From: Blastocatellia bacterium
Lineage (GTDB): Bacteria; Acidobacteriota; Blastocatellia; HR10; J050
Assembly: GCA_025054955.1 (NCBI GenBank)
Contig: JANWZE010000045.1
Span: 1 to 35,415 of the forward strand
Length of the DNA stretch: 35,415 nt
Reading direction: 5' to 3'
Both the position numbers and the translations under genes were made by a program. This document shows positions 74-35,231 of the stretch, piece after piece; the first letter of the stretch is position 1, and each line of letters opens with the position of its first letter. The notes under the pieces are model-generated. The model did no database searches. It was not told where the DNA came from and saw only the letters and a list, made by a program, of their open reading frames with translations.

Positions 74-151
74 GAGGCGTTGTTCATACCGTCGGTAACG
101 ACGCAGGTGAAACGATGAAATGGAGCACAGGCGGGAACGCCTATGCCACAA
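74..151 (+). repeat. Two-hairpin start-site element, copy E1
   Basis: The head GTTGTTCATA, a first stem around CGTCGGTAACGACG, the core GAAACGATGAAA and a second hairpin (CACAGGCGGGAACGCCTATG) lie directly before the SD (GTGGAG) and start codon of the glycoside hydrolase-like gene at 170. It belongs to the family described at 27548-27635. Confidence 0.7.
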
Positions 152-169
152 TCCCAGTGGAGAAGCTCG

Positions 170-7620: not shown

Positions 7621-7706
7621 AGGAGTCGTCCCTATGCGATGGCGCGCCACGAAGAATGAAAATGGAACACAGGCAGGAACGCCTGTGCCACATTCTCAAG
7701 GGAGGG
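7621..7706 (+). repeat. Two-hairpin start-site element, copy E2
   Basis: Head GGAGTCGTCCC, first stem GCG/CGC, linker GCCACGAAGAATGAAAATGG, second hairpin ACAGGCAGGAACGCCTGT, tail ATTCTCAAGGGAGG. The terminal GGGAGG is the SD of the small exported protein at 7709. Confidence 0.75.
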
Positions 7707-7708
7707 CT

Positions 7709-8119
7709 TTGACGCGCAAGAGTGAATCTCCAATGCACCTGTTGCACTTGGTATTTCTTTTCATGTTGATTGGGTCTTCATGGTATGTTCACGGCCAAAC
7801 GTTCCGTAGTTGGATCGCCGGAACGATGCTAGCCCCGGCCGGCGCCGCTGAGATCCAGGCCGGCACGCCTCAAGATGAATCTACCTCCCACATGTTGGAT
7901 GGCATTCCCCAATCGAACAAGATTAAAGAGGTTCCCATTGACGGGCGTGACGCACGAGATTTTCAACGCGCATCCCGAGCGCAAGTGGAGACGCTGGAGC
8001 AGGCGCCAATTCAGGCGTTAGAGCTGGGTTGTGCAGCAAGAAAGGCCATCACGCAGGATCAAACAATATCCTACTCGCTATGGAATGCACCTGTCCCTGG
8101 GTGCACCGCTGAACGATAA
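7709..8119 (+). CDS. Small exported protein of unknown function
   Basis: 136 residues if started at TTG 7709, which sits directly after a strong GGGAGGG SD supplied by the upstream repeat; the alternative is ATG 7733. A short basic n-region (TRKSESP) and MHLLHLVFLFMLIGSSWYVHGQ make a clear Sec signal peptide. The mature part is low in hydrophobic residues, rich in Gln, Ala and charged residues, and has two cysteines (LELGCAAR, VPGCTAER), which could form a disulfide. No family is recognised. nagA starts six bases after its stop, so the two are probably co-transcribed. Confidence 0.55.
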   Translation: MTRKSESPMHLLHLVFLFMLIGSSWYVHGQTFRSWIAGTMLAPAGAAEIQAGTPQDESTSHMLDGIPQSNKIKEVPIDGRDARDFQRASRAQVETLEQAPIQALELGCAARKAITQDQTISYSLWNAPVPGCTAER

Positions 8120-14301: not shown

Positions 14302-17043
14302 TTACGGCTGGGGCAAGTGAGCGCGATACTGGGCAGCCTTCCCCGGCTTGCCCCAGGCTTCGTAGAGGTCAATCAGCCGCTGGAGCGTTTGCTGCGTGTG
14401 TCGGTTTCGCCCTCCGCGTTGAGCCTTGAGTGTGGCGTAGCTTTTCACCAACAGCGGTTCGGCTTCGTCATATCGCCGCAACGCCACCAGACACGCGCCG
14501 AGTCCGCTCTCGGCCTGAGCAATCCACCAGTGATCTTCAGGTAGTGTTCGGCGCAGAGCGTTGAGGCCATCGCGCAGGAGCGGTTCGGCAGCCTGTGGGT
14601 TCCCCTTGTCGGTCAGAAGCACGCCAAGTCCGACCAGTGAAGTAGCAACAGCCGGATGCCCTTCCGGCAATGTCTTTCGTCGCAGCTCGAGCGCCTGTCG
14701 GTACAGCGGCTCGGCCGGCGCCAGGTCACCTTTGACGTGCAGCAATCCAGCCAGGTTAAACAAGCTGAAGGCCACCAGCGGGTGCTGCTCGCCCAGCGCT
14801 TTCCGGCGGATGGCCAGCGCCTCGCGCAACAGCGGCTCAGCGGCCTCATAATCCCCCTTGTCTTGCAGCAAGAGAGCCAGATTGTTCATGTCAGCCGCCA
14901 CATCCGGGTGCTCGTTTCCCAGCAATTTGCGATCAATAGCGAGGGCTTGGCGGAACAAGGGTTCGGCGGCTTCGAGCTCGCCCTTGGTGTGTAGCAACGT
15001 CGCGAGGTTATACAAGCTGAGAGCGATGAGCGGATGCTCTTCGCCCAACAACTTGCGACGGAGCGCCAGCGCCTCGCGGTAGAGCGGCTCAGCCGCCGCC
15101 AGATTGCCTTTGGATTTCAACAGCAACGCCAGGTTATTCAAGCTCTGCGCCACATCTGGATGTTGCTCACCCAGGAGTTTGCGGCGCATTGTCAGCGCCT
15201 CACGGAACAGCGGCTCGGCTGCCTCATAATCGGCTTTGTCGTAGTGTAACAACGCCAGGTTGTTCAGACTCGTCGCCACATCTGGATGCTCGTCGCCGAG
15301 TAGCTTGCGACGCATCGTCAGCGCCTGGCGAAAAAGCGGCTCGGCTGCCTCATACTGGCCCTTGTCGTGCCACAATCCGCCCAAACTGTCCAGGCTACTG
15401 GCTACATCTAGATGTTCCTCCCCCAGCATCTGCTGCCGCCGCTTCAGCGCCTCTTCCAGCAGCGGGGCGGCCTGGTCATACAATCCAAGGCTCTGGTACA
15501 CCCGACCCATCGTGTCCATCATCGTTGCTTGCACCTCCGGCTGGCCTTTCAGCTCCTTGCCGATTTTCTCTGCCCCTTTGTCTAGAATCTCTCGCGCCGT
15601 GATTGTATTGCCCCGGGCTTCGCTCGGATCAGAAACCTTGAACAGGTCTACCAAAAACGCTGACACCTGCTTGGCTTTGGCCTCTCCCTGCTCGGCCCTC
15701 TCTAACGCCCGCGCAATCCTGGCCGATTGGATGGCCATGGTAACGCCAAAGCCGATGATAAGCGCCACGAAGGCTGCTGTCACCACGATCCCAATCTTGT
15801 GTCGCCCAATGAACTTTCCAACTCGATACCTGACGGTGCCTTTTTGAGCAATGACCGGCAGCCCCACCAAGTGTCGCCGAATGTCTTCTGAGAATTGCTC
15901 CACAGACGAGTAGCGGCGTTGCGGCTCTTTGCGCATCGCCATCAACACAATGTTATCCAAATCTCCTTCAAGCTCATGGCGAAGCTTTTTCGCTGTCCGT
16001 TGTTCTTCGTCCATTGACCGTTGTTTTTCGTCCGTTGACCGTTGTCTTTCGTCCGTTGCCACTGACCACCGACCACCGACCACTGACCACTGACGGCTAA
16101 CAGCCGTGCTGGGTTTCTCCGGCTCTTCCTCGCAAATGACCCGTTCAATCTCCTGCAGCGAGTGGCTTTTGAACAGATACGGTGGGTGGCCGGTCAGCAG
16201 TTTGTACAGGAGCACTCCGAGCGAACAGACATCGCTGGCCGTCGTGATCGGCTCGCCTCGCACCTGCTCCGGGCTGGCGTACTCTGGCGTCATCGGTCGC
16301 AGTCCCATCACGGTGGCGGTGAGCGTCTGAGCATCAGATTCAGGATGCAGCAGCTTGGCCACACCAAAGTCCAGCAGCTTGGGCACGCCGTCGCTCGTGA
16401 CGAGAATGTTGCTGGGCTTCAGATCACGATGCACGACCAGATTTTGATGGGCGTAGTGCACGGCGGAGCAGACCGTGCGAAAGAGCTTCAATCGCTCTCT
16501 AGTTGACAGGGCGTGGGCGTGGCAATACTCGTCAATGGGCTGGCCTTCGACGTATTCCATCACGAAATAAGGCCGCCCATCTTCGGTGGTGCCACCGTCC
16601 AGGAGTCGGGCAATGTTCGGGTGATCCAGATTGGCTAGAATCTGCCGTTCGTGGCGGAAACGGCGAATGATCTCGTCCGTATCCATGCCGCGTTTGATTA
16701 GCTTGACGGTGACCTGCTTCTGGTATTGCTCGTCAGCGCGCGCCGCCAGATAGACCGTGCCCATTCCACCGTGCCCAATCTCGCGGATGAGCTGATAAGG
16801 ACCAACCTGCTGCCCGGCTTCTGATGGGGCTTGTTCCTGGGTGGCGAGTGTGACTACGTCCTCTATGGCCGCGTGAACGAGGCTCTCGGCTCGTTCAGCC
16901 GACTCTAGCAGCGACTCGACTTCAGCGCGTAGGTCCAGATCCCCGGCACAGACCTCGTCCAAGTACGCCGCCCGTTGACCTGGTTCGCGCTCCAAAGTGG
17001 CATAAAAGACATCCTGGATTTGTTGCCAGCGGTCTGGTGTCAT
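14302..17043 (-). CDS. Membrane Ser/Thr protein kinase with C-terminal TPR array
   Basis: 913 residues. Residues 1-80 are the N-terminal helical segment common to acidobacterial kinases. The kinase domain (~82-395) has IGHGGMGTVYLA (90-100), Lys 114, HRDLKPSN (205-212), DFG (225-227) and TPEYASPEQ. Residues ~317-350 (QWSVVGGRWSVATDERQRS...) are a low-complexity insertion encoded by DNA repeats between the conserved EEEPEKPS and LRHELEGDLDNIVLMAMRKEP segments. A single membrane helix at ~417-439 is followed by a coil and about ten TPR units of ~42 residues (AEPLFRQALTMRRKLLG(D/E)EHPDVATSLNNLA). It is encoded after the sigma factor, suggesting kinase control of, or by, that regulator. Confidence 0.92.
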   Translation of the reverse strand: MTPDRWQQIQDVFYATLEREPGQRAAYLDEVCAGDLDLRAEVESLLESAERAESLVHAAIEDVVTLATQEQAPSEAGQQVGPYQLIREIGHGGMGTVYLAARADEQYQKQVTVKLIKRGMDTDEIIRRFRHERQILANLDHPNIARLLDGGTTEDGRPYFVMEYVEGQPIDEYCHAHALSTRERLKLFRTVCSAVHYAHQNLVVHRDLKPSNILVTSDGVPKLLDFGVAKLLHPESDAQTLTATVMGLRPMTPEYASPEQVRGEPITTASDVCSLGVLLYKLLTGHPPYLFKSHSLQEIERVICEEEPEKPSTAVSRQWSVVGGRWSVATDERQRSTDEKQRSMDEEQRTAKKLRHELEGDLDNIVLMAMRKEPQRRYSSVEQFSEDIRRHLVGLPVIAQKGTVRYRVGKFIGRHKIGIVVTAAFVALIIGFGVTMAIQSARIARALERAEQGEAKAKQVSAFLVDLFKVSDPSEARGNTITAREILDKGAEKIGKELKGQPEVQATMMDTMGRVYQSLGLYDQAAPLLEEALKRRQQMLGEEHLDVASSLDSLGGLWHDKGQYEAAEPLFRQALTMRRKLLGDEHPDVATSLNNLALLHYDKADYEAAEPLFREALTMRRKLLGEQHPDVAQSLNNLALLLKSKGNLAAAEPLYREALALRRKLLGEEHPLIALSLYNLATLLHTKGELEAAEPLFRQALAIDRKLLGNEHPDVAADMNNLALLLQDKGDYEAAEPLLREALAIRRKALGEQHPLVAFSLFNLAGLLHVKGDLAPAEPLYRQALELRRKTLPEGHPAVATSLVGLGVLLTDKGNPQAAEPLLRDGLNALRRTLPEDHWWIAQAESGLGACLVALRRYDEAEPLLVKSYATLKAQRGGRNRHTQQTLQRLIDLYEAWGKPGKAAQYRAHLPQP
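15997..16095 (-). repeat. Low-complexity DNA repeat inside the kinase gene
   Basis: On the minus strand it runs as about five imperfect copies of a GTCAGTGGTC/GGTCGGTGGTC unit, followed by about four copies of an ACGGAC-GAAAGACA-type unit of 15-18 bases. It translates as QWSVVGGRWSV followed by TDERQRS/TDEKQRS/MDEEQRT. Similar QWSVV tracts are familiar as intergenic repeats in several phyla; here the reading frame is kept. Confidence 0.75.
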
Positions 17044-18540: not shown

Positions 18541-18638
18541 GACGGAGAATCGTCCATGAGCTTCGCGCTCGCCACGAACGATGAAAAAGAAATTCTTTCG
18601 CGTCTTTCGGGTTTTTCGTGGGCTATTTTCGCGGAGCG
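18541..18638 (+). repeat. Two-hairpin start-site element, copy E3
   Basis: Head GGAGAATCGTCCATG, first stem GAGC/GCTC, linker GCCACGAACGATGAAAAAG, weak second stem (AAAGAA/TTCTTT), then TTTTTCGTGGGCTATTTTCG and a terminal GGAG. No gene follows it directly. Confidence 0.65.
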
Positions 18639-18718
18639 ATAAATTCAAAGCACGAAATCCGAAACTCGATACAAATTCCAATGAGCGAGGTCCAAAAGTC
18701 AACATATTGAGTCAGGAA

Positions 18719-18769
18719 CTGCCCATGAGCTGAGGCACGCCACAAACGATGAAAATGTAATTTTCCGGC
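18719..18769 (+). repeat. Two-hairpin start-site element, copy E4 (short)
   Basis: CTGCCCATGAGC, GCCACAAACGATGAAAATG and a shortened 3' half. It abuts copy E5. Confidence 0.55.
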
Positions 18770-18838
18770 GAATCGCCCATGTGCGACAGCAGGCCACCAA
18801 TGATGAAAACCTGGGAGCGCCCGCTTCGAGCGGGCTAA
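18770..18838 (+). repeat. Two-hairpin start-site element, copy E5
   Basis: Head GAATCGCCCATG, first stem TGC/GCA, linker GGCCACCAATGATGAAAAC, and a strong second hairpin GCCCGCTTCGAGCGGGC at a position where other copies have a different stem. Confidence 0.6.
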
Positions 18839-23925: not shown

Positions 23926-24010
23926 GGGAGTCGCCCATGAGCTTACCCTCGCCACGAAGCATGAAAATGAAGCAAAGGTGGGAGCCGCCTGTGCCACATT
24001 CTCAAAGGGA
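23926..24010 (+). repeat. Two-hairpin start-site element, copy E6
   Basis: Head GGGAGTCGCCCATGAGC, linker GCCACGAAGCATGAAAATG, a second hairpin with altered stem (GGTGGGAGCCGCC), tail CACATTCTCAAAGGGA, which is shared with the head of copy E7. Confidence 0.7.
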
Positions 24011-24130
24011 ATCGCCCATGAGCTTACCCTCGCCACGTTGAAGGAAGTGATTCGTGTCGTTCGCTACGACGCGAGAGAAACGATGAAAAACGCCACTGGC
24101 GCGAACGCCTGTGCCACATTCACAAAGGGA
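24008..24130 (+). repeat. Two-hairpin start-site element, copy E7 (hybrid)
   Basis: Starts with the type-2 head GGGAATCGCCCATGAGC and continues into a type-1 stem GTCGT/ACGAC, the linker GAGAAACGATGAAAAACGCC, the second hairpin and tail ACAAAGGGAG. The terminal GGGAG is the SD of the metalloprotease-like gene at 24139. Confidence 0.7.
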
Positions 24131-24142
24131 GAAAACGTATGA
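24083..24142 (+). other. Short leader frame inside element E7, overlapping the next start by ATGA
   Basis: ATG 24083 opens MKNATGANACATFTKGENV and ends at TGA 24140-24142, sharing ATGA with the start at 24139. The same peptide (MKNATG.NACATF) is readable in copies E10 and E13, but reading frames differ in copies E2, E6 and E14, so conservation probably reflects the DNA/RNA element. Translation would couple to the downstream gene if it occurs. Confidence 0.3.
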
Positions 24143-26185: not shown

Positions 26186-26279
26186 CTCACTTGAGAATGG
26201 CCTACGAATCAGACGAGCGTCACGGAAGAACTGTTTTCTCATCGTTCGCGGTGAGCAAAGAGCTCAGGGGCGATTCCCT
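26186..26279 (-). repeat. Two-hairpin start-site element, copy E8
   Basis: Minus strand: head GGGAATCGCCCCTGAGC, first stem GAGC/GCTC, linker CACCGCGAACGATGAGAAAAC, then a 3' half ending in TTCTCAAGTGAG. Downstream member of a tandem pair with E9. Confidence 0.6.
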
Positions 26280-26360
26280 TGAAACTAGCCCACGAAACAC
26301 GCGAAGCTCACGAAAGATTCCATCGTTCGCGGTGAGCGCAAATCTCATGGGCGATTCCTG
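26276..26360 (-). repeat. Two-hairpin start-site element, copy E9
   Basis: Minus strand: head AGGAATCGCCCATGAG, linker CACCGCGAACGATGG, TTTCGTGAGCTTCGCG, TTTCGTGGGCTAGTTTC and AAGGGA shared with E8. No gene follows. Confidence 0.6.
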
Positions 26361-26716: not shown

Positions 26717-27542
26717 GTCTACGAGCCTCACGCTGGCGCGGCACAGGGAGAAACTCGACAGCACCCCCTTGTCGTCGCACCGGCTGCGGATACAGGGCCA
26801 TGAGTTCGAGAATCGCTGCTGGCATATCAAAACTCACCGGCAGTCCGAGCGACAGTGCCTCTTCAGCAGATATAGGATAGTCATGAGTCCACGTGCCGGT
26901 AGCCAGCTTCGCCGCCAAAGCGCGAGCGGCATCTTCGTTCATGTGTTTACTCAATAGACTGGTGGCTGCTGTTTCCAATTGTTGAATGGCTTTGCGCCCA
27001 ATATCAGCCATGAGCAAGGTGTGGTCATCCACTTCGGAAATCGGCTTCTGGTCAATCACCTTGATCAAAGAGGCGGCGGGAAATTGCCCTATTTGTGGAT
27101 CAATCGGTCCCAGGATGGAATGCTTACACATCACGATCTCATCGGCGGCCAATGCGATCAATGTTCCTCCCGACATAGCATAGTGAGGCACGAAGACAGT
27201 GACCTTACCCTTATGCGCGCGAATCGCGCGGGCAATTTGCAGCGCAGCCACAACTAATCCACCCGGCGTATGCAAGACGATGTCCAGCGGCACATCATCA
27301 TCAGTCATGTGAATGGCACGCAAGACCTCTTCGGAGTCGTTCACGTCAATGTACCTCATCAAAGGAAACCCCAAAAGCCCCATCGTTTCCTGCCGATGCA
27401 CCAGCAGAATGACCCGCGAGCCGCGCATCTTCTCAATCTCTGCAATCTTGCGTGTGCGCATTGCCTCAAGAAAACGCCGTTGCAGCAACGGCTGTAAGGC
27501 TGAGATCATGAAAAAAATCCAAAATATGTCCACTATCCCCAT
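26712..27542 (-). CDS. SDH-family ClpP-fold serine protease with N-terminal membrane helix
   Basis: 276 residues from ATG 27542, which has GAGGAGGAG upstream; codons before it lie in a repeat. MGIVDIFWIFFMISALQPLLQRRFLEAMRTRKIAEIEKMRGSRVILLVHRQE is the usual opening of the PF01972 (SDH_sah) family, with one membrane helix (~4-20). HTPGGLVVAALQIARAI supplies the oxyanion Gly-Gly; YAMSGGTLIALAADEIVM carries the nucleophile Ser124; LGPIDPQIG follows. These proteins process membrane or membrane-near substrates. Preceded by two tandem start-site elements (E10, E11). Confidence 0.88.
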   Translation of the reverse strand: MGIVDIFWIFFMISALQPLLQRRFLEAMRTRKIAEIEKMRGSRVILLVHRQETMGLLGFPLMRYIDVNDSEEVLRAIHMTDDDVPLDIVLHTPGGLVVAALQIARAIRAHKGKVTVFVPHYAMSGGTLIALAADEIVMCKHSILGPIDPQIGQFPAASLIKVIDQKPISEVDDHTLLMADIGRKAIQQLETAATSLLSKHMNEDAARALAAKLATGTWTHDYPISAEEALSLGLPVSFDMPAAILELMALYPQPVRRQGGAVEFLPVPRQREARRQ

Positions 27543-27547
27543 AGTTC

Positions 27548-27635
27548 TCCTCCTCAGAAAAAGTGGCACAGGCATTCCTGCCTGTGGCGTTTTTCATCGT
27601 TTCCGGGCGTCGTCCAGACGACATGAACAACTCCT
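27548..27635 (-). repeat. Two-hairpin start-site element, copy E10 (reference copy)
   Basis: Read on the minus strand: head AGGAG-TTGTTC-ATG; first hairpin GTCGTC-TG-GACGAC; linker GCCCGGAAACGATGAAAAAC; second hairpin GCCACAGGC-(AGGAAT)-GCCTGTGCC; tail TTTTTCTGAGGAGGAG, which serves as SD for the gene at 27542. Type-2 copies have the head GGGAATCGCCCATGAGC and the linker GCCACGAACGATGAAAA. Confidence 0.8.
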
Positions 27636-27770
27636 ATGATGAGTCATCAACGCTCGTGCGAAGATGCAAGCACAGATTCACCGATGAAGAAATTTTCAAT
27701 CAGTCAATCAGTGAATCTGCGCTTGAGTTTTATCGTTTCTGGGCGTCGCCACAAGCGGTATGAACAACTG
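27632..27770 (-). repeat. Two-hairpin start-site element, copy E11 (replaced second hairpin)
   Basis: Minus strand: GTTGTTCATA, first stem CCGC/GGCG, GACGCCCAGAAACGATAAAAC, and then a different, longer second hairpin whose arms are CAAGCGCAGATTCAC and GTGAATCTGTGCTTG (27725-27667, one wobble pair), ending in ATAGGAG, which is the head of E10. Confidence 0.7.
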
Positions 27771-27845: not shown

Positions 27846-29528
27846 CTATTTGATTTTCTTCGCGGGTTGGTTCAACCCAAATTGATGAAGAATCAGATGT
27901 GTTACCTTGCCGGCTTCATCTTTGACAAATGTGATCTGCGCGTCAACTACGATGTAGAAAAACTTCGTTTCCGATTCAGGGAACAGCTCAAATTTGGGCT
28001 GGCCGGTCAGTTGCGCCATGAGCCTGTTTTCTTCCTTGCCGATCGTGAAAATCAGACCCGGTGCTAATTCGTACTGACCGACGTAGGCATCGTACACCTT
28101 GGGATCAAGCGTGATAGCCTTGCGCTCTTCCGGCGCGGGCTTGTCCGTCTTGGGTGCGCTCTGCTTGGTGCCGTCACTTTGATACAAGACCATGTGCGTC
28201 ACCTTGCCTGCAGCGTCTTTCACGAAACTCAGGTGAACGTTGGCACCTTGAATGAAGAAATCAGTTTCCGATTCAGGGCGAATCTCTCGCTTCAGTCCGC
28301 CGGTTGGCTGCAAGAAGAGCCGATCGGTGATCTTGGTGACGGTGACGAATGTGTCAGCGTTGAGCTGATAGACTCCGACATAGGCGTCCAGGATTTTCGG
28401 ATCAACCTTGATAGGCACTCGCTCTTTGTAAAGTGGATAGGTGCTCTCCAGCAGATGCAATCCGATGTCATCAATGTTGTTTATCGAATTGGATAAGACG
28501 GCGACGCCCAGGCGCTTCTTTTTGTCAAACCCGATGAAGCTATGGTAACCGCCCGTGCCGCCGTTATGCCACACAATCTGCGCGCCGTGCTTGTTGTAGA
28601 TATGCCAGCCCAGCCCGACTTCAACGCCCGGAGCGCCCGCGTTCTGCTGAGCCAGATGCGTCTTCTCCAACGCGGGAAACAGAGCAGTTTTCGTGAGCCC
28701 CAAGTTCGCCGCCAGGAACTTGAGTAGATCGTTTACTGTCGAGCGCAACGCGCCTGCGCCCGCCAACGTGGGAATATCCCAGTTGGCAGCCACTTTCAAA
28801 TCTCCGTCATGCCCAGTCGCCAACCGCGCCCGCAGATCGGGTGGAAGCTGAATCCGCGTGCTGCGCATCGTGAGTGGATCGCAGATGCGAGTCTTTACCA
28901 ACGTTTCATAATCCATCCCCGCTTTGAGCGCCAGGATGTGACCTAACAGGCCGGCGCCGTAATTTGAATATTCATATTTGACGCCGATGTCTCTGCTCAG
29001 CGTGTAGTTCGACAGAAACGCATACATCTGCTCGACAGTGTAATCAGCGTAAGGATTGTTCGCATCCTTGGGAGCAAAATTACTCGGCAGTCGTGGAAGT
29101 CCGGATGTATGCGTTGCTAGATCACGTAGCGTGATCTCTTTTCCATTTCTTGTTGGAACCTTCACTGATTGGGGTAGGAATTTGGATATCGGATCGTCAA
29201 GTTTCACTTCCCCACGCTCGACCATGTCAGCGAGCAGTATCGCTGTGAAGACCTTAGTGATTGAGCCGACTTCAAAGACGGTGTCCCCATCAGGCTTGCG
29301 ATCGCTCTCTTGACTGAGACGCCCATAGCTGATCACCCGGCTCCCGTCTTGGTTGATCACGCCAACGACAATGCCCACGCTCTTTTTGTATTGATCAATC
29401 CGCTGTTGAAGAATGGTCAGGATTTCAGCGTCGGACGGACGACTTTGAGCAACAGCGACGCGTTGAATTGAACCGGGTCTAAGGCCAAGCAAAATGACAA
29501 TGAGGAATACTACAGGTCGTTTCTTCAT
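27846..29528 (-). CDS. Exported serine hydrolase, class C beta-lactamase family, with duplicated C-terminal domain
   Basis: 560 residues. Signal peptide MKKRPVVFLIVILLGLRPGSIQRVAVAQ. The catalytic SxxK is SITK (89-92) in FEVGSITKVFTAILLADMV, the second motif Tyr-Ser-Asn at 187-189 (YEYSNYG), and the third element is HNGG in WHNGGTGGYHSFIGFD. LRDLATHTSGLPRLPSN is typical. Two copies of a ~90-residue beta domain follow (DAYVGVYQLNADTFVTVTK...PESETDFFI...LSFVKDAAGKVTHMVLYQ and DAYVGQYELAPGLIFTIGK...PESETKFFY...ITFVKDEAGKVTHLILHQ), like DUF3471-type tails. Probably a D-aminopeptidase, esterase or PBP-like hydrolase; antibiotic resistance should not be assumed. SD GGGAGA comes from element E12. 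Confidence 0.9.
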   Translation of the reverse strand: MKKRPVVFLIVILLGLRPGSIQRVAVAQSRPSDAEILTILQQRIDQYKKSVGIVVGVINQDGSRVISYGRLSQESDRKPDGDTVFEVGSITKVFTAILLADMVERGEVKLDDPISKFLPQSVKVPTRNGKEITLRDLATHTSGLPRLPSNFAPKDANNPYADYTVEQMYAFLSNYTLSRDIGVKYEYSNYGAGLLGHILALKAGMDYETLVKTRICDPLTMRSTRIQLPPDLRARLATGHDGDLKVAANWDIPTLAGAGALRSTVNDLLKFLAANLGLTKTALFPALEKTHLAQQNAGAPGVEVGLGWHIYNKHGAQIVWHNGGTGGYHSFIGFDKKKRLGVAVLSNSINNIDDIGLHLLESTYPLYKERVPIKVDPKILDAYVGVYQLNADTFVTVTKITDRLFLQPTGGLKREIRPESETDFFIQGANVHLSFVKDAAGKVTHMVLYQSDGTKQSAPKTDKPAPEERKAITLDPKVYDAYVGQYELAPGLIFTIGKEENRLMAQLTGQPKFELFPESETKFFYIVVDAQITFVKDEAGKVTHLILHQFGLNQPAKKIK

Positions 29529-29535
29529 AGACGAT

Positions 29536-29627
29536 CTCCCGAAAATAGTCCACGAAACACACGAACCTCACGAAAGAATTGTACTTTCATCGTTCGTGGC
29601 ATGCTGTTGCATAGGGGCGATTCTCCC
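29536..29627 (-). repeat. Two-hairpin start-site element, copy E12
   Basis: Minus strand: head GGGAGAATCGCCCCTATG, first stem ATGC/GCAT, linker GCCACGAACGATGAAAG, TTTCGTGAGGTTCGTG, TTTCGTGGACTATTTTCG and terminal GGGAGA, the SD for the gene at 29528. Confidence 0.7.
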
Positions 29628-30106
29628 GAAAATAGCCACAGAGGCCAAGAGAGCACAGCGGGACAGCCCGCAGAGATGGAGAGAGGGCTCTCGGTGAACT
29701 CTGTAACCTGCGTGACTCCTTAATTTCATTCTTCGTTGCGGTGCACATGGAACATGCGCGGCTCCTCTAAAATCAAGTGCCCGATTATCTCACATCGCGA
29801 GTGTTCTTACCCCGTCAAGAATGTGATTACACCGTTCTCCTCTTGCGGCCAAAAGATTTTGCACCAGGCTTTCTGAAACAAGCTAGCGCCTGATGAGCCG
29901 CATTTTCTGGCCTTGGCAAGGCCACGCTCCATGCCTCGACAAGGCCTTGCTCCACGCCTCGACAAGGCCAGGTTACAAGCCCCGGCGAGCCCTTGCTCCA
30001 AAAAAGGATTTAACAACCGTTAGGACAAACGAACCTGCAATTCAACACACGACCACCCCACAGGCGTGGGTATGATCTGGTGCGTTGCATGAATCACAAC
30101 GTTGGA
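29628..30106. other. Intergenic interval without a supported gene
   Basis: Apart from a tandem repeat (29911-30002) I see no coding region. Small open frames over the repeat are compositional. Confidence 0.5.
29911..30002 (+). repeat. 23-base tandem repeat, four units
   Basis: Units start at 29911, 29934, 29957 and 29980, with the pattern CCTYGRCAAGGCC.TGCTCCA.G. Units 1 and 2 differ at 4 positions; units 3 and 4 are more diverged. Each unit contains a partial CCTTG/CAAGG palindrome. Head-to-tail arrangement without spacers excludes a CRISPR array. Confidence 0.75.
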
Positions 30107-30901
30107 TCACAACTTCTTCAACAGTTCCTTCCACCGGGCCCAGGCCTCATCACGGGCTTTTTTGTTAGCTTCGGCAGCGTCAGGCATTTCACCTGTGCGC
30201 ATGAAGCCGTGCCCTGCGCCTTCGTAAATCACCGGCTCGTACCTTTTGCCCAGTTCTTTCATCAGCGCAGCCGTCGGTTCAATCGTTGCATTGACGCGAG
30301 CATCGTTGCCGCCATAGAAACCGTAGACAGGGCATTTGATCCGAGCGATTGCTTCTTTCTCTCGCGGGCCTGAGCCATAAAACACGAAGGCTGCTTGAAG
30401 CTTCTCTCGATTGGTGGCAAAACGAAACGTCTGACTTCCGCCCCAGCAGAAGCCGGCCACAGCGAGTTTTCCGTTTGCTGCCGGCAGCTTCACCACGTAA
30501 TCAGCCACCGCGTTCAGGTCAGCCGTCACTTGATCGGGCTGCAATTTGGAGATGGCTTCACGGGCAGCGTCAGCGTTGGGAAAGTCGCTCGTCTTACCGC
30601 CGTTGGGCGCTGAGCCGGAAAGCAAATCGGGCGCAATGGCGATATATCCGGCTTCGGCTAACTGATCAGCCACGTTGCGAACCCAATCAGTCAAGCCCTG
30701 GTTTTCGTGGATGACAATGATGGAAAGCGCTTTGGTTTTGATCTCCGGATAGACCAGAAACGCGTGGACCGTGCGCTCGCCGTATTTGACCGCTACCCAC
30801 TCTTGATGTCGCGGTGATTTTTCCAGCTTCTGCCGGAACATATCTTGGGCAAGCGCGGAACCAACCATTAACACAACGACAAAAACAGATGCGAGTCTCA
30901 T
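30107..30901 (-). CDS. Exported dienelactone hydrolase family protein
   Basis: 264 residues from ATG 30901; the frame continues upstream through a repeat (MKNATGRNACATF...) but MRLASVFVVVLMVGSALAQ is a complete signal peptide and has GAGGAG before it. The alpha/beta-hydrolase core shows IIVIHENQGLTDWVRNVADQLAEAGYIAIAPDLL, nucleophile Cys152 in AGFCWGG, Asp200 in YGGNDARV and His231 in GAGHGFMR: the Cys-Asp-His triad of dienelactone hydrolases. A secreted version is unusual for ring-cleavage metabolism, so a broader ester or peptide substrate is likely. Confidence 0.88.
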   Translation of the reverse strand: MRLASVFVVVLMVGSALAQDMFRQKLEKSPRHQEWVAVKYGERTVHAFLVYPEIKTKALSIIVIHENQGLTDWVRNVADQLAEAGYIAIAPDLLSGSAPNGGKTSDFPNADAAREAISKLQPDQVTADLNAVADYVVKLPAANGKLAVAGFCWGGSQTFRFATNREKLQAAFVFYGSGPREKEAIARIKCPVYGFYGGNDARVNATIEPTAALMKELGKRYEPVIYEGAGHGFMRTGEMPDAAEANKKARDEAWARWKELLKKL

Positions 30902-30906
30902 GGAAA

Positions 30907-30995
30907 TCTCCTCAGAAAAAGTGGCACAGGCATTCCTGCCTGTGGCGTTTTTCATCGTTTCTGGGCGTCCTCCCGCACGACATGAACAACTCCTC
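30907..30995 (-). repeat. Two-hairpin start-site element, copy E13
   Basis: Minus strand: head GAGGAGTTGTTCATG, linker GCCCAGAAACGATGAAAAAC, the reference second hairpin, tail TTTTTCTGAGGAG that is the SD for the gene at 30901. Confidence 0.75.
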
Positions 30996-31074
30996 AGAAA
31001 AAGTGGCACAGGCGTTCCCGCCTGTGGCGTTTTTCATCGTTTCTCTCGCGTCGTCCAGACGGCATGTAGAACTC
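30991..31074 (-). repeat. Two-hairpin start-site element, copy E14
   Basis: Minus strand: head GAGTTCTACATG, first stem CCGTC/GACG, linker GCGAGAGAAACGATGAAAAAC, second hairpin GCCACAGGCGGGAACGCCTGTGCC, tail sharing GAGGAG with E13. The head begins within the stop codon of the gene ending at 31073. Confidence 0.75.
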
Positions 31075-33497: not shown

Positions 33498-33612
33498 TTC
33501 TCCTCCATCAGCGGCTAGACCCGCGAAAACGAACATCAACAAGATGCAGCCGCCACAAAGTGCGTAACTTTGTAACTCCTTTACCTGTGCTGCGGGTTGC
33601 GTAGGGCCTTGC

Positions 33613-33683
33613 AGCTCGCGCATCAGCCGCACACGGAGCGAGCGAAGCGAGCGGAGCGTGTCGGCTCGATGCGCTTGTTAGCC
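33613..33683 (-). other. Degenerate attC-like integron recombination site
   Basis: GTTAGCC at 33677-33683 bounds an imperfect palindrome: GCGCATC-AGCCG-ACAC on the left matches GTGTCGGCTCGATGCGC on the right, with a purine-rich GAGCGAGCGAAGCGAGCGGAG centre and one extrahelical base on the right arm. The outer AAC partner on the left is lost, so the site looks eroded or one-sided. It lies 13 bases after the broken endonuclease III-like gene, where a cassette attC should be. Confidence 0.55.
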
Positions 33684-33695
33684 TGCCGTCCAATA

Positions 33696-34468
33696 TCACA
33701 AAGCGGTTTCGCCTATTGTTCTCTTCGCAGTTGGACAATGCCGTTGCATATAGCATTTTCCGCAATTTGGCATACGAGGACGACACCACTCCCGTCCAAT
33801 CTCCCACGCAGCCAAATCAAAAATGCCATGGTATTCAGGGTTCAATTCTCGGGCTGTGTAGATGATTTCTTCGTTTGACGCACCTTTACGGATAAGACCA
33901 AGGCGTTCAAAAACGCGACGAACTTATACATCAGCCCAAATGTCAATCGTGAATTTATCGCTGACCTGTACTTTGAAATCACGGACAAGGATGTTGGCAG
34001 CCATTGTAGCAATCTTCGGGCCTGCTCCGTGAAACTCCAAAAAACCTCTTACAATAGTTGCGCTGCTGGGTTGACCTTGCCAGATTCGAGCCGCATCTCC
34101 TGAATACTGCTCTCGAATGTGCTGAATGGCTGAATAGAAGATACCCGCCATCGCCTCTTTCAGTCTATGAAGTGGTGAACCTTGGATGAATAGCGAGGTA
34201 ACCTTCCCCTGCGAAAGAGATGCCAGATCATCAAATTCAAACGAGCCTAGCCTTTCTTTGAAGCGATAGGGCACTGACCAACACTTTTCTGCTTGCCATT
34301 GCCTATCCATCAAGCAAGCGGTAAAAAAGCGTGCGGATAATGTTCAATGTCATTCAAAAGAGCATCGGCAACTGAATCACCAGTGAACAGATTAGTCTCG
34401 CGAGGTTGCGACAGTAGTTCTTCGCTACGCTTTTTGAGAATGCCATGAATGGCTTTTGCGCTCATCAT
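33696..34468 (-). pseudogene. Endonuclease III-like HhH-GPD DNA glycosylase, frameshifted and stopped
   Basis: From ATG 34468: MSAKAIHGILKKRSEELL...ALLNDIEHYPHAF, then a frameshift at a run of six A (34323-34328, plus strand). One added base restores FTACLMDRQWQAEKCWSVPYRFKERLGSF...GFLEFHGAGPKIATMAANILVRDFKVQVSDKFTIDIWADV, with the helix-hairpin-helix FHGAGPKIATMAA and catalytic-region Asp. A TAA (33926-33924) then interrupts, but the same frame continues VRRVFERLGLIRKGASNEEIIYTARELNPEYHGIFDLAAWEIGREWC, and the C-x6-C-x2-C-x5-C iron-sulfur motif of endonuclease III. Corrected, it would be 257 residues. It is the only gene in its cassette. Confidence 0.75.
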
Positions 34469-34502
34469 CAAAAAGAGGCTGAAGTGACCTGCCCCGTAGG
34501 CA

Positions 34503-34579
34503 CGCTAACGGCCTAGGCTTAACCTGCGGTGAGCCGAGCACAGCGAGGCGAAGCAGTCAGGTGCAAGCGCTTGTTAGCC
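34503..34579 (-). other. attC-like integron recombination site
   Basis: Outer core sites CGCTAAC (34503-34509) and GTTAGCC (34573-34579) flank inner arms AACCTGC (34521-34527) and GCAGTCAGGT, with a GGTGAGCCGAGCACAGCGAGGCG centre. The AAC...GTT cores and two-box palindrome are the attC hallmark; the outer heptamers deviate by one base from RYYYAAC/GTTRRRY. It lies 16 bases after the antitoxin stop. Confidence 0.7.
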
Positions 34580-34595
34580 CGCCGCTTCTCCCAAA

Positions 34596-34838: not shown

Positions 34839-35116
34839 AAACGATACACCGTGATAATCACCAATTTGCCTCTCGGACTAATTTTTATCACCGCAACCAT
34901 CTCATCGCCTGAAACCGTCTGCCCTTTGACCAGATACTTCCATTCACCGCTGGCTATATCTTTCTGACGTTCGAAAATCTCGCCTGTGAGCAGGCACCTT
35001 TCCACATCGAAGATGCTCAATCCATCATCGCTCATTTCTTCTTCCGCGTGCAGGGTCATCACATATTGGCGGCGGCGAACCCTGTCGCGGATTTTGTTCA
35101 AGATGCGTTGCAACAC
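34835..35116 (-). CDS. DUF4258 toxin
   Basis: 93 residues from GTG 35116 with AGGAG upstream. YVMTLHAEEEMSDDGLSIFDVERCLLTGEIFERQKDIASGEWKYLVKGQTVSGDEMVAVIKISPRGKLVIITVYRL follows the DUF4258 pattern: H..EEM..DGLSI.DV...L..GEI.E...., then a strand-rich end, close to RelE/MqsR-like folds. It is translationally coupled by ATGA to the YgiT-type gene. DUF4258-MqsA pairs are known toxin-antitoxin modules and are common integron cassette cargo. Confidence 0.85.
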   Translation of the reverse strand: MLQRILNKIRDRVRRRQYVMTLHAEEEMSDDGLSIFDVERCLLTGEIFERQKDIASGEWKYLVKGQTVSGDEMVAVIKISPRGKLVIITVYRL

Positions 35117-35168
35117 AGCCTGCTCCTATCGTTGCACGAGAATTGTAACAGACTGCGCAAGACACGGG

Positions 35169-35231
35169 GGCTAACGACTCCGGTTCAGCGGCGGGCCACG
35201 CAGCGCCGGCCGCTGCAACCGACGGTTAGCC
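35169..35231 (-). other. attC-like integron recombination site, well preserved
   Basis: GGCTAAC (35169-35175) pairs with GTTAGCC (35225-35231). Inner arms GGTTCAGCGGC (35182-35192) and GCCGCTGCAACC pair with one extrahelical base on the right arm, around a short GC-rich centre. Two nested complementary boxes with spacer loops and an unpaired base are what integron integrase recognises. The unpaired base orients the site on the minus strand, in line with the cassette genes. The window-edge gene ends exactly at its border. Confidence 0.78.

Follow-up and report, generated by a model that had tools for sequence, protein, structure and literature searches.

The window, by which we mean the whole stretch of 35,415 nucleotides that was analysed (contig JANWZE010000045.1 of a Blastocatellia bacterium), carries eight arrays of a short repeat, in which cores of two types are followed by sequences referred to here as cargo and junction. 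The copy that was first singled out is a type-1 core on the minus strand (27591..27633, nhmmer E 6.8e-14) that leads, through a CACAGGC hairpin cargo and a GAGGAG junction (27543..27590), to the ATG at 27542 of a gene for a ClpP-like SDH protease; another type-1 core of this array, with a cargo of the CAGATT type, lies at 27728..27769 (minus strand, E 9.9e-11). Two further minus-strand arrays end at genes. A type-2 core (29585..29623, E 6e-9) with a CGTGG cargo and a GGGAG junction (29529..29584) precedes the ATG at 29528 of a beta-lactamase-family gene, and two type-1 cores located by profile search (31031..31074 and 30949..30992) precede, through a CACAGGC hairpin cargo and a GAGGAG junction (30902..30948), the ATG at 30901 of a dienelactone hydrolase gene. 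On the plus strand, a type-1 core (78..120, E 4.5e-10) with a CACAGGC hairpin cargo and a GGAG junction (121..169) stands before the ATG at 170 of a GHL10 gene, and a type-2 core (7622..7662, E 1.7e-8) with a CACAGGC hairpin cargo and a GGGAGG junction (7663..7708) stands before a putative TTG start at 7709. A longer plus-strand array, made up of a type-2 core with a CACAGGC-like cargo (23927..23967, profile search), a truncated type-2 core (24008..24037, E 1e-4) and a type-1 core (24051..24089, E 2.6e-7), ends in a hairpin cargo and a GGGAG junction (24090..24138) before an ATG at 24139. The other two arrays, whose cores were all located by profile search, comprise three plus-strand type-2 cores, namely one with a CGTGG cargo ending GTGGGCTATTTTC (18547..18630, whole-unit RNA fold z -2.0), one with a short cargo (18715..18755) and one with a GGGAGCGC cargo (18770..18809), and two minus-strand type-2 cores (26319..26358 and 26239..26277). 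Six of the eight arrays abut a start codon. Genes were called with a simple script based on open reading frames and codon usage, not with a standard gene finder.

The window also holds, between the beta-lactamase-family gene and the dienelactone hydrolase gene, 23-nt units of GCCTCGACAAGGCC... in tandem (29910-30000), and further a gene for a protein kinase (14302-17043) whose TPR array is specified by 126-nt repeats. Imperfect inverted repeats of the GGCTAACG...GTTAGCC type (34460-34585, 35110-35180 and ~33590-33688) are by sequence look-alikes of integron attC sites, and they show a cassette-like spacing around small ORFs of the minus strand, one of them belonging to the AHSA1 family.

A sequence-only reading of this DNA had listed eight places and about fourteen copies of the element. 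Extraction of the coordinates together with profile searches recovered the repeat at all eight places, and the nhmmer searches of the window find 15 cores, nine of type 2 and six of type 1. The repeat is far beyond chance, since the 4.69-Mb genome contains 57 copies of the 12-mer GAACGATGAAAA and none of its reversed control. A sample of about 1.05 Mb of the genome contains 138 cores in 76 arrays and a covariance model (R1) gives at least 151 matches genome-wide; extrapolation from the sample's less biased portion suggests a total of approximately 300-400 copies. Several contigs of the assembly break off within these repeats. Covariance models of Rfam produced 0 matches in the window at the gathering threshold, and searches of an open-access library turned up neither such a family in Acidobacteriota nor a repeat with a Shine-Dalgarno end.

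Each unit consists of a ~42-nt core, an exchangeable cargo that is often a palindrome, and a purine junction with GGA(G) at its end, through which units are joined head to tail. About 8-9 nt separate the head, GGA(A/G), from a hairpin of 3-5 bp (hairpin 1). Type 2 has the form GGAATCGCCCATG-hairpin-GCCACGAANGATGAAAA and type 1 the form GAGTTGTTCATG-hairpin-GC..GAAACGATGAAAA. The previously proposed layout of head, hairpin 1, CGATGAAA linker, hairpin 2 or a replacement, and purine tail is correct in its order but not in its invariant linker, CGATGAAA being a consensus with the variants GCATGAAA, GAATGAAA and CGATAAAA; the purine tail is the GGA(G) at the junction to the following unit or gene. 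GAAAA marks the start of the cargo and TTTTC or TTCTC its end, after which come 2-4 bases and GGA(G). A rough pattern classification distinguishes at least six classes of cargo behind the core, including the CACAGGCGGGAACGCCTGTG hairpin (38 copies), TTCGTG...CGTGG (24 copies, an undercount), short loops such as GAAAATGGTTATTTTC (22), GGGAGCGC (8), CACGGAG (7) and CAGATT (5), with other or truncated cargo in 34 copies. The CACAGGC palindrome has 59 strand-wise matches, equivalent to about 31 places read on both strands, and 27 of the matches come immediately after a core; the majority of CACAGGC hairpins and 11 of 12 short loops follow a core. The CACAGGC hairpin was also considered as a phylum-wide repeat and rejected, its exact form being found only in the window's genome among 149.

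In the 1.05-Mb sample, 75 of the 76 arrays have a single orientation and 74 are intergenic. The units have no set of terminal inverted repeats in common: where the ends of a classical MITE would be inverted copies of each other, GGAATCGCCC and TTTTC..GGAG are not, and the inverted ends AATCGCCC/GGGCGATT occur only in the version with CGTGG cargo. As to a target-site duplication, another trait of classical MITEs, GGA(G), which may be borne by the unit itself, flanks units on both sides, and the other flanking bases do not match. The constant ends with variable inner modules are those of a BOX-like modular repeat.

The head of the core resembles a Shine-Dalgarno sequence followed by ATG, and many units are open, so the repeat could consist of small translated ORFs, with GAGGAGTTGTTCATG readable as a start site and several units open in frame on inspection. 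The frame, however, is not kept, as the loop is 4 nt long in 42 of 90 copies and 5 nt long in 48, and many copies have another sequence in place of the head ATG or have it at another position. A coding role was rejected and we regard it as very improbable.

The sequence-only reading had interpreted the element as structured, dispersed and modular, with selection acting on a paired but variable first stem. The first part of this interpretation agrees with our results, as does the lack of an Rfam match, while the case for selection on the stem is weak. One of the stem pairs quoted for it, CCGC/GGCG, is not complementary as written. Among 90 type-2 copies, 83.0% of stem cells are paired compared to 75.9% in shuffles, and the second pair is the only one with more than one double change (UA 29, AU 27, unpaired 26); it tracks subfamilies defined by loop length, with TA accompanying a 4-nt loop in 23 of 30 copies and AT a 5-nt loop in 21 of 27. 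In type 1 a single pair covaries (UA 20, CG 6), and pairs with double changes are no more numerous than in shuffles. The consensus stem energy is -0.72 kcal/mol. On their own, three cores fold no more stably than shuffled sequence (z -0.35, -0.37 and -1.5); for whole units the fold is moderately more stable than that of shuffles (z -1.2 to -3.0). The pairing-preserving changes that had been taken as a sign of selection come down to one strongly covarying pair per core type, which follows subfamilies. Significant covariation, on whose presence the earlier interpretation had been made to depend, is nearly absent, and the repeat itself stands regardless. With covariation and fold tests this weak, RNA-structure selection was rejected as the main explanation, and selection on hairpin 1 is not demonstrated.

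The junction often coincides with the Shine-Dalgarno sequence of the downstream gene. About 24 of the 76 sampled arrays abut a start codon according to a manual count, the automatic tail classes including some false positives, and most arrays (about two thirds) lie away from start codons, some of them between convergent genes. The distance from the core end to the start codon peaks at 40-60 nt, with 15 in the bin compared to 0-3 in most other bins, and only two core heads lie within 40 nt of a divergent start. The repeat is likewise found ahead of start codons in relatives of the order. The count of GGAG followed by a start shows no enrichment when compared with intergenic RGGAG sites; of those that lie outside the arrays, 36% precede a start. 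Many of these sites are Shine-Dalgarno sequences in their own right, and the positional case therefore rests on the distance distribution and the orientation. For the same reason a preference for insertion at GGAG suffices to explain the position of the units, and a preference for genes is unnecessary.

With about a third of the arrays abutting start codons in the sense direction, the core and hairpin upstream of the Shine-Dalgarno sequence could act in the mRNA as a cis-regulatory 5' leader, for instance one that stabilises the transcript or serves translation. The moderate folding of whole units is consistent with such a role, and conservation between genera extends over the core sequence, the unpaired stretches GCCACGAA and GATGAAAA included. 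On the other hand, the strong covariation is limited to the subfamily-linked pair of each type, the majority of arrays lie elsewhere, and the conservation of cores at start codons does not significantly exceed that of the others (p 0.88 and 0.17), which gives no indication of selection for a function at that position. Orthologous genes also lack the core. The SDH-protease orthologues in G001 and G002 and the dienelactone-hydrolase orthologues in G003 to G006 have a purine-rich Shine-Dalgarno sequence and no core, despite 45, 20 and 64 cores elsewhere in G001, G002 and G006, respectively, which are relatives of the same order; the units are therefore not inherited leaders of these genes. We consider a leader function unlikely.

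The remaining genomes searched have 0 to 3 core matches each. Cores are present in two of the three sampled families of the order, other orders of the class have none save one match in one genome, and the cores are essentially confined to the same order. In the relatives the copies often bear a different cargo. Most cores of G006 carry a CCAACGGAT...ATCCGTTGG cargo that is absent among the examined copies of the window's genome; as judged from these sequences, the cargo turns over and the core and the junction are retained. A cross-phylum element was considered and rejected, the 18-mer GCCACGAACGATGAAAAT being found in 13 genomes and full cores only in a Blastocatellia contig (L027); the 18-mer matches outside that contig look like chance. 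Modular and intergenic, the repeats form a real family that is specific to the order and unusual in its link to ribosome-binding sites.

With their short palindromes, intergenic position and GGAG-like tag, the units are reminiscent of REPs and could be a REP or REPIN family mobilised by a RAYT; a Y1 transposase gene is present in the window's genome, and canonical GTAG-tagged palindromes share mosaics with the cores. The Y1 gene, however, has no cores around it, its flanks carrying another palindrome, CAGACGTGAAACGTCTG; G006 has its 64 cores and no Y1 match, and G003 has eight Y1 matches and no core. Known REPs, moreover, are situated close to the 3' ends of the genes upstream of them (PMC3733652), unlike the cores. 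Given the lack of linkage to the Y1 gene and copy numbers that disagree across the order, mobilisation by a RAYT was rejected; we judge it decidedly unlikely.

Two Y1_Tnp matches are found in the genome, one of which is a normal-sized transposase gene. At L034 (1486-1932) a Y1 (IS200-like) transposase gene adjoins a RAMP-superfamily gene and is surrounded by repeated CAGACGTTTCACGTCTG-type palindromes, whose GTAG-tagged form also occurs in core mosaics; this gene and its palindromes are likely a canonical REP system of the genome. At L035 (G000:C75:22380-22652) a Y1_Tnp match lies within a 1324-aa open frame. Mosaics at L017, L068, L016 and L012 also hold other dispersed palindromes, for example TCGGGCGGCCACGGCGAGCCGCCCG and GTTTTGGAGTGCGGCGGCAAGCCCGCAGGGCGCGACGCCGC, which likewise begin after GAGGAG or GGGAG.

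We consider it probable, at roughly 0.6, that the units belong to a family of modular non-coding repeats, short and interspersed, which spread through insertion into intergenic GGAG-like sites. A unit consisting of the core, the hairpin cargo, TTTTC, a few bases and GGA(G) would insert at a GGAG-like site between genes, with GGAG as the target and a putative enzyme acting in trans. Insertion at a Shine-Dalgarno sequence would leave a Shine-Dalgarno sequence at normal spacing before the start codon and would be tolerated because the unit ends in GGAG, and each junction could accept a further unit, which would give rise to the head-to-tail arrays. Tolerance, and not benefit, would be the likely reason for the position. 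The case for insertion comes from orthologues in other genera, where the units may instead have been lost. It is possible, though doubtful, that the repeat is a mobile element whose specific targets are Shine-Dalgarno sequences and which brings along one of its own, thereby swapping the gene's signal and installing an exchangeable hairpin leader; if so, the translation of many genes would have been rewired without breaking them. A repeat that often resides on ribosome-binding sites without spoiling them, and that swaps its hairpin cargo from genus to genus, would offer a natural means of spreading 5' leaders, and the family would be a tractable case of a mobile element made harmless by its target preference.

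To our knowledge, the repeat is unrelated in sequence to the pneumococcal BOX elements and to the enterobacterial ERIC and RU elements. The BOX elements (boxA-boxB-boxC; PMC3049150) have the same modular plan of constant ends and exchangeable inner modules, and both families are intergenic, structured and present in over a hundred copies. BOX has terminal inverted repeats and target duplications (PMC3049150); the present repeat differs from it in having diverse palindromes rather than a repeated boxB as cargo, in its Shine-Dalgarno-like GGAG at the 3' end, and in its host phylum. ERIC and RU (PMC2229807) are likewise non-autonomous, shorter than 200 bp and intergenic, with a MITE-like spread, whereas no common terminal inverted repeat or TA ends are seen in our repeat. 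REPs with GTAG or CGTC tags (PMC3733652) are also short, palindromic, intergenic, high in copy number and found in mosaics. In contrast to them, our repeat has no tetranucleotide directly beside a 20-40 bp palindrome, its copy number does not follow RAYT genes, and its arrays are uniform in orientation in 75 of 76 cases, while REP units in BIMEs and REPINs are often opposed. REPs, the best studied small bacterial repeats, are found mostly beside the 3' ends of genes (PMC3733652), and our repeat often at the 5' ends of downstream genes. By this comparison BOX appears to be the nearest known system in layout and REPs the nearest in general kind, and the best reading is that the repeat constitutes a new family of a general kind already known, the small mosaic intergenic repeats of BOX- or REP-like character.
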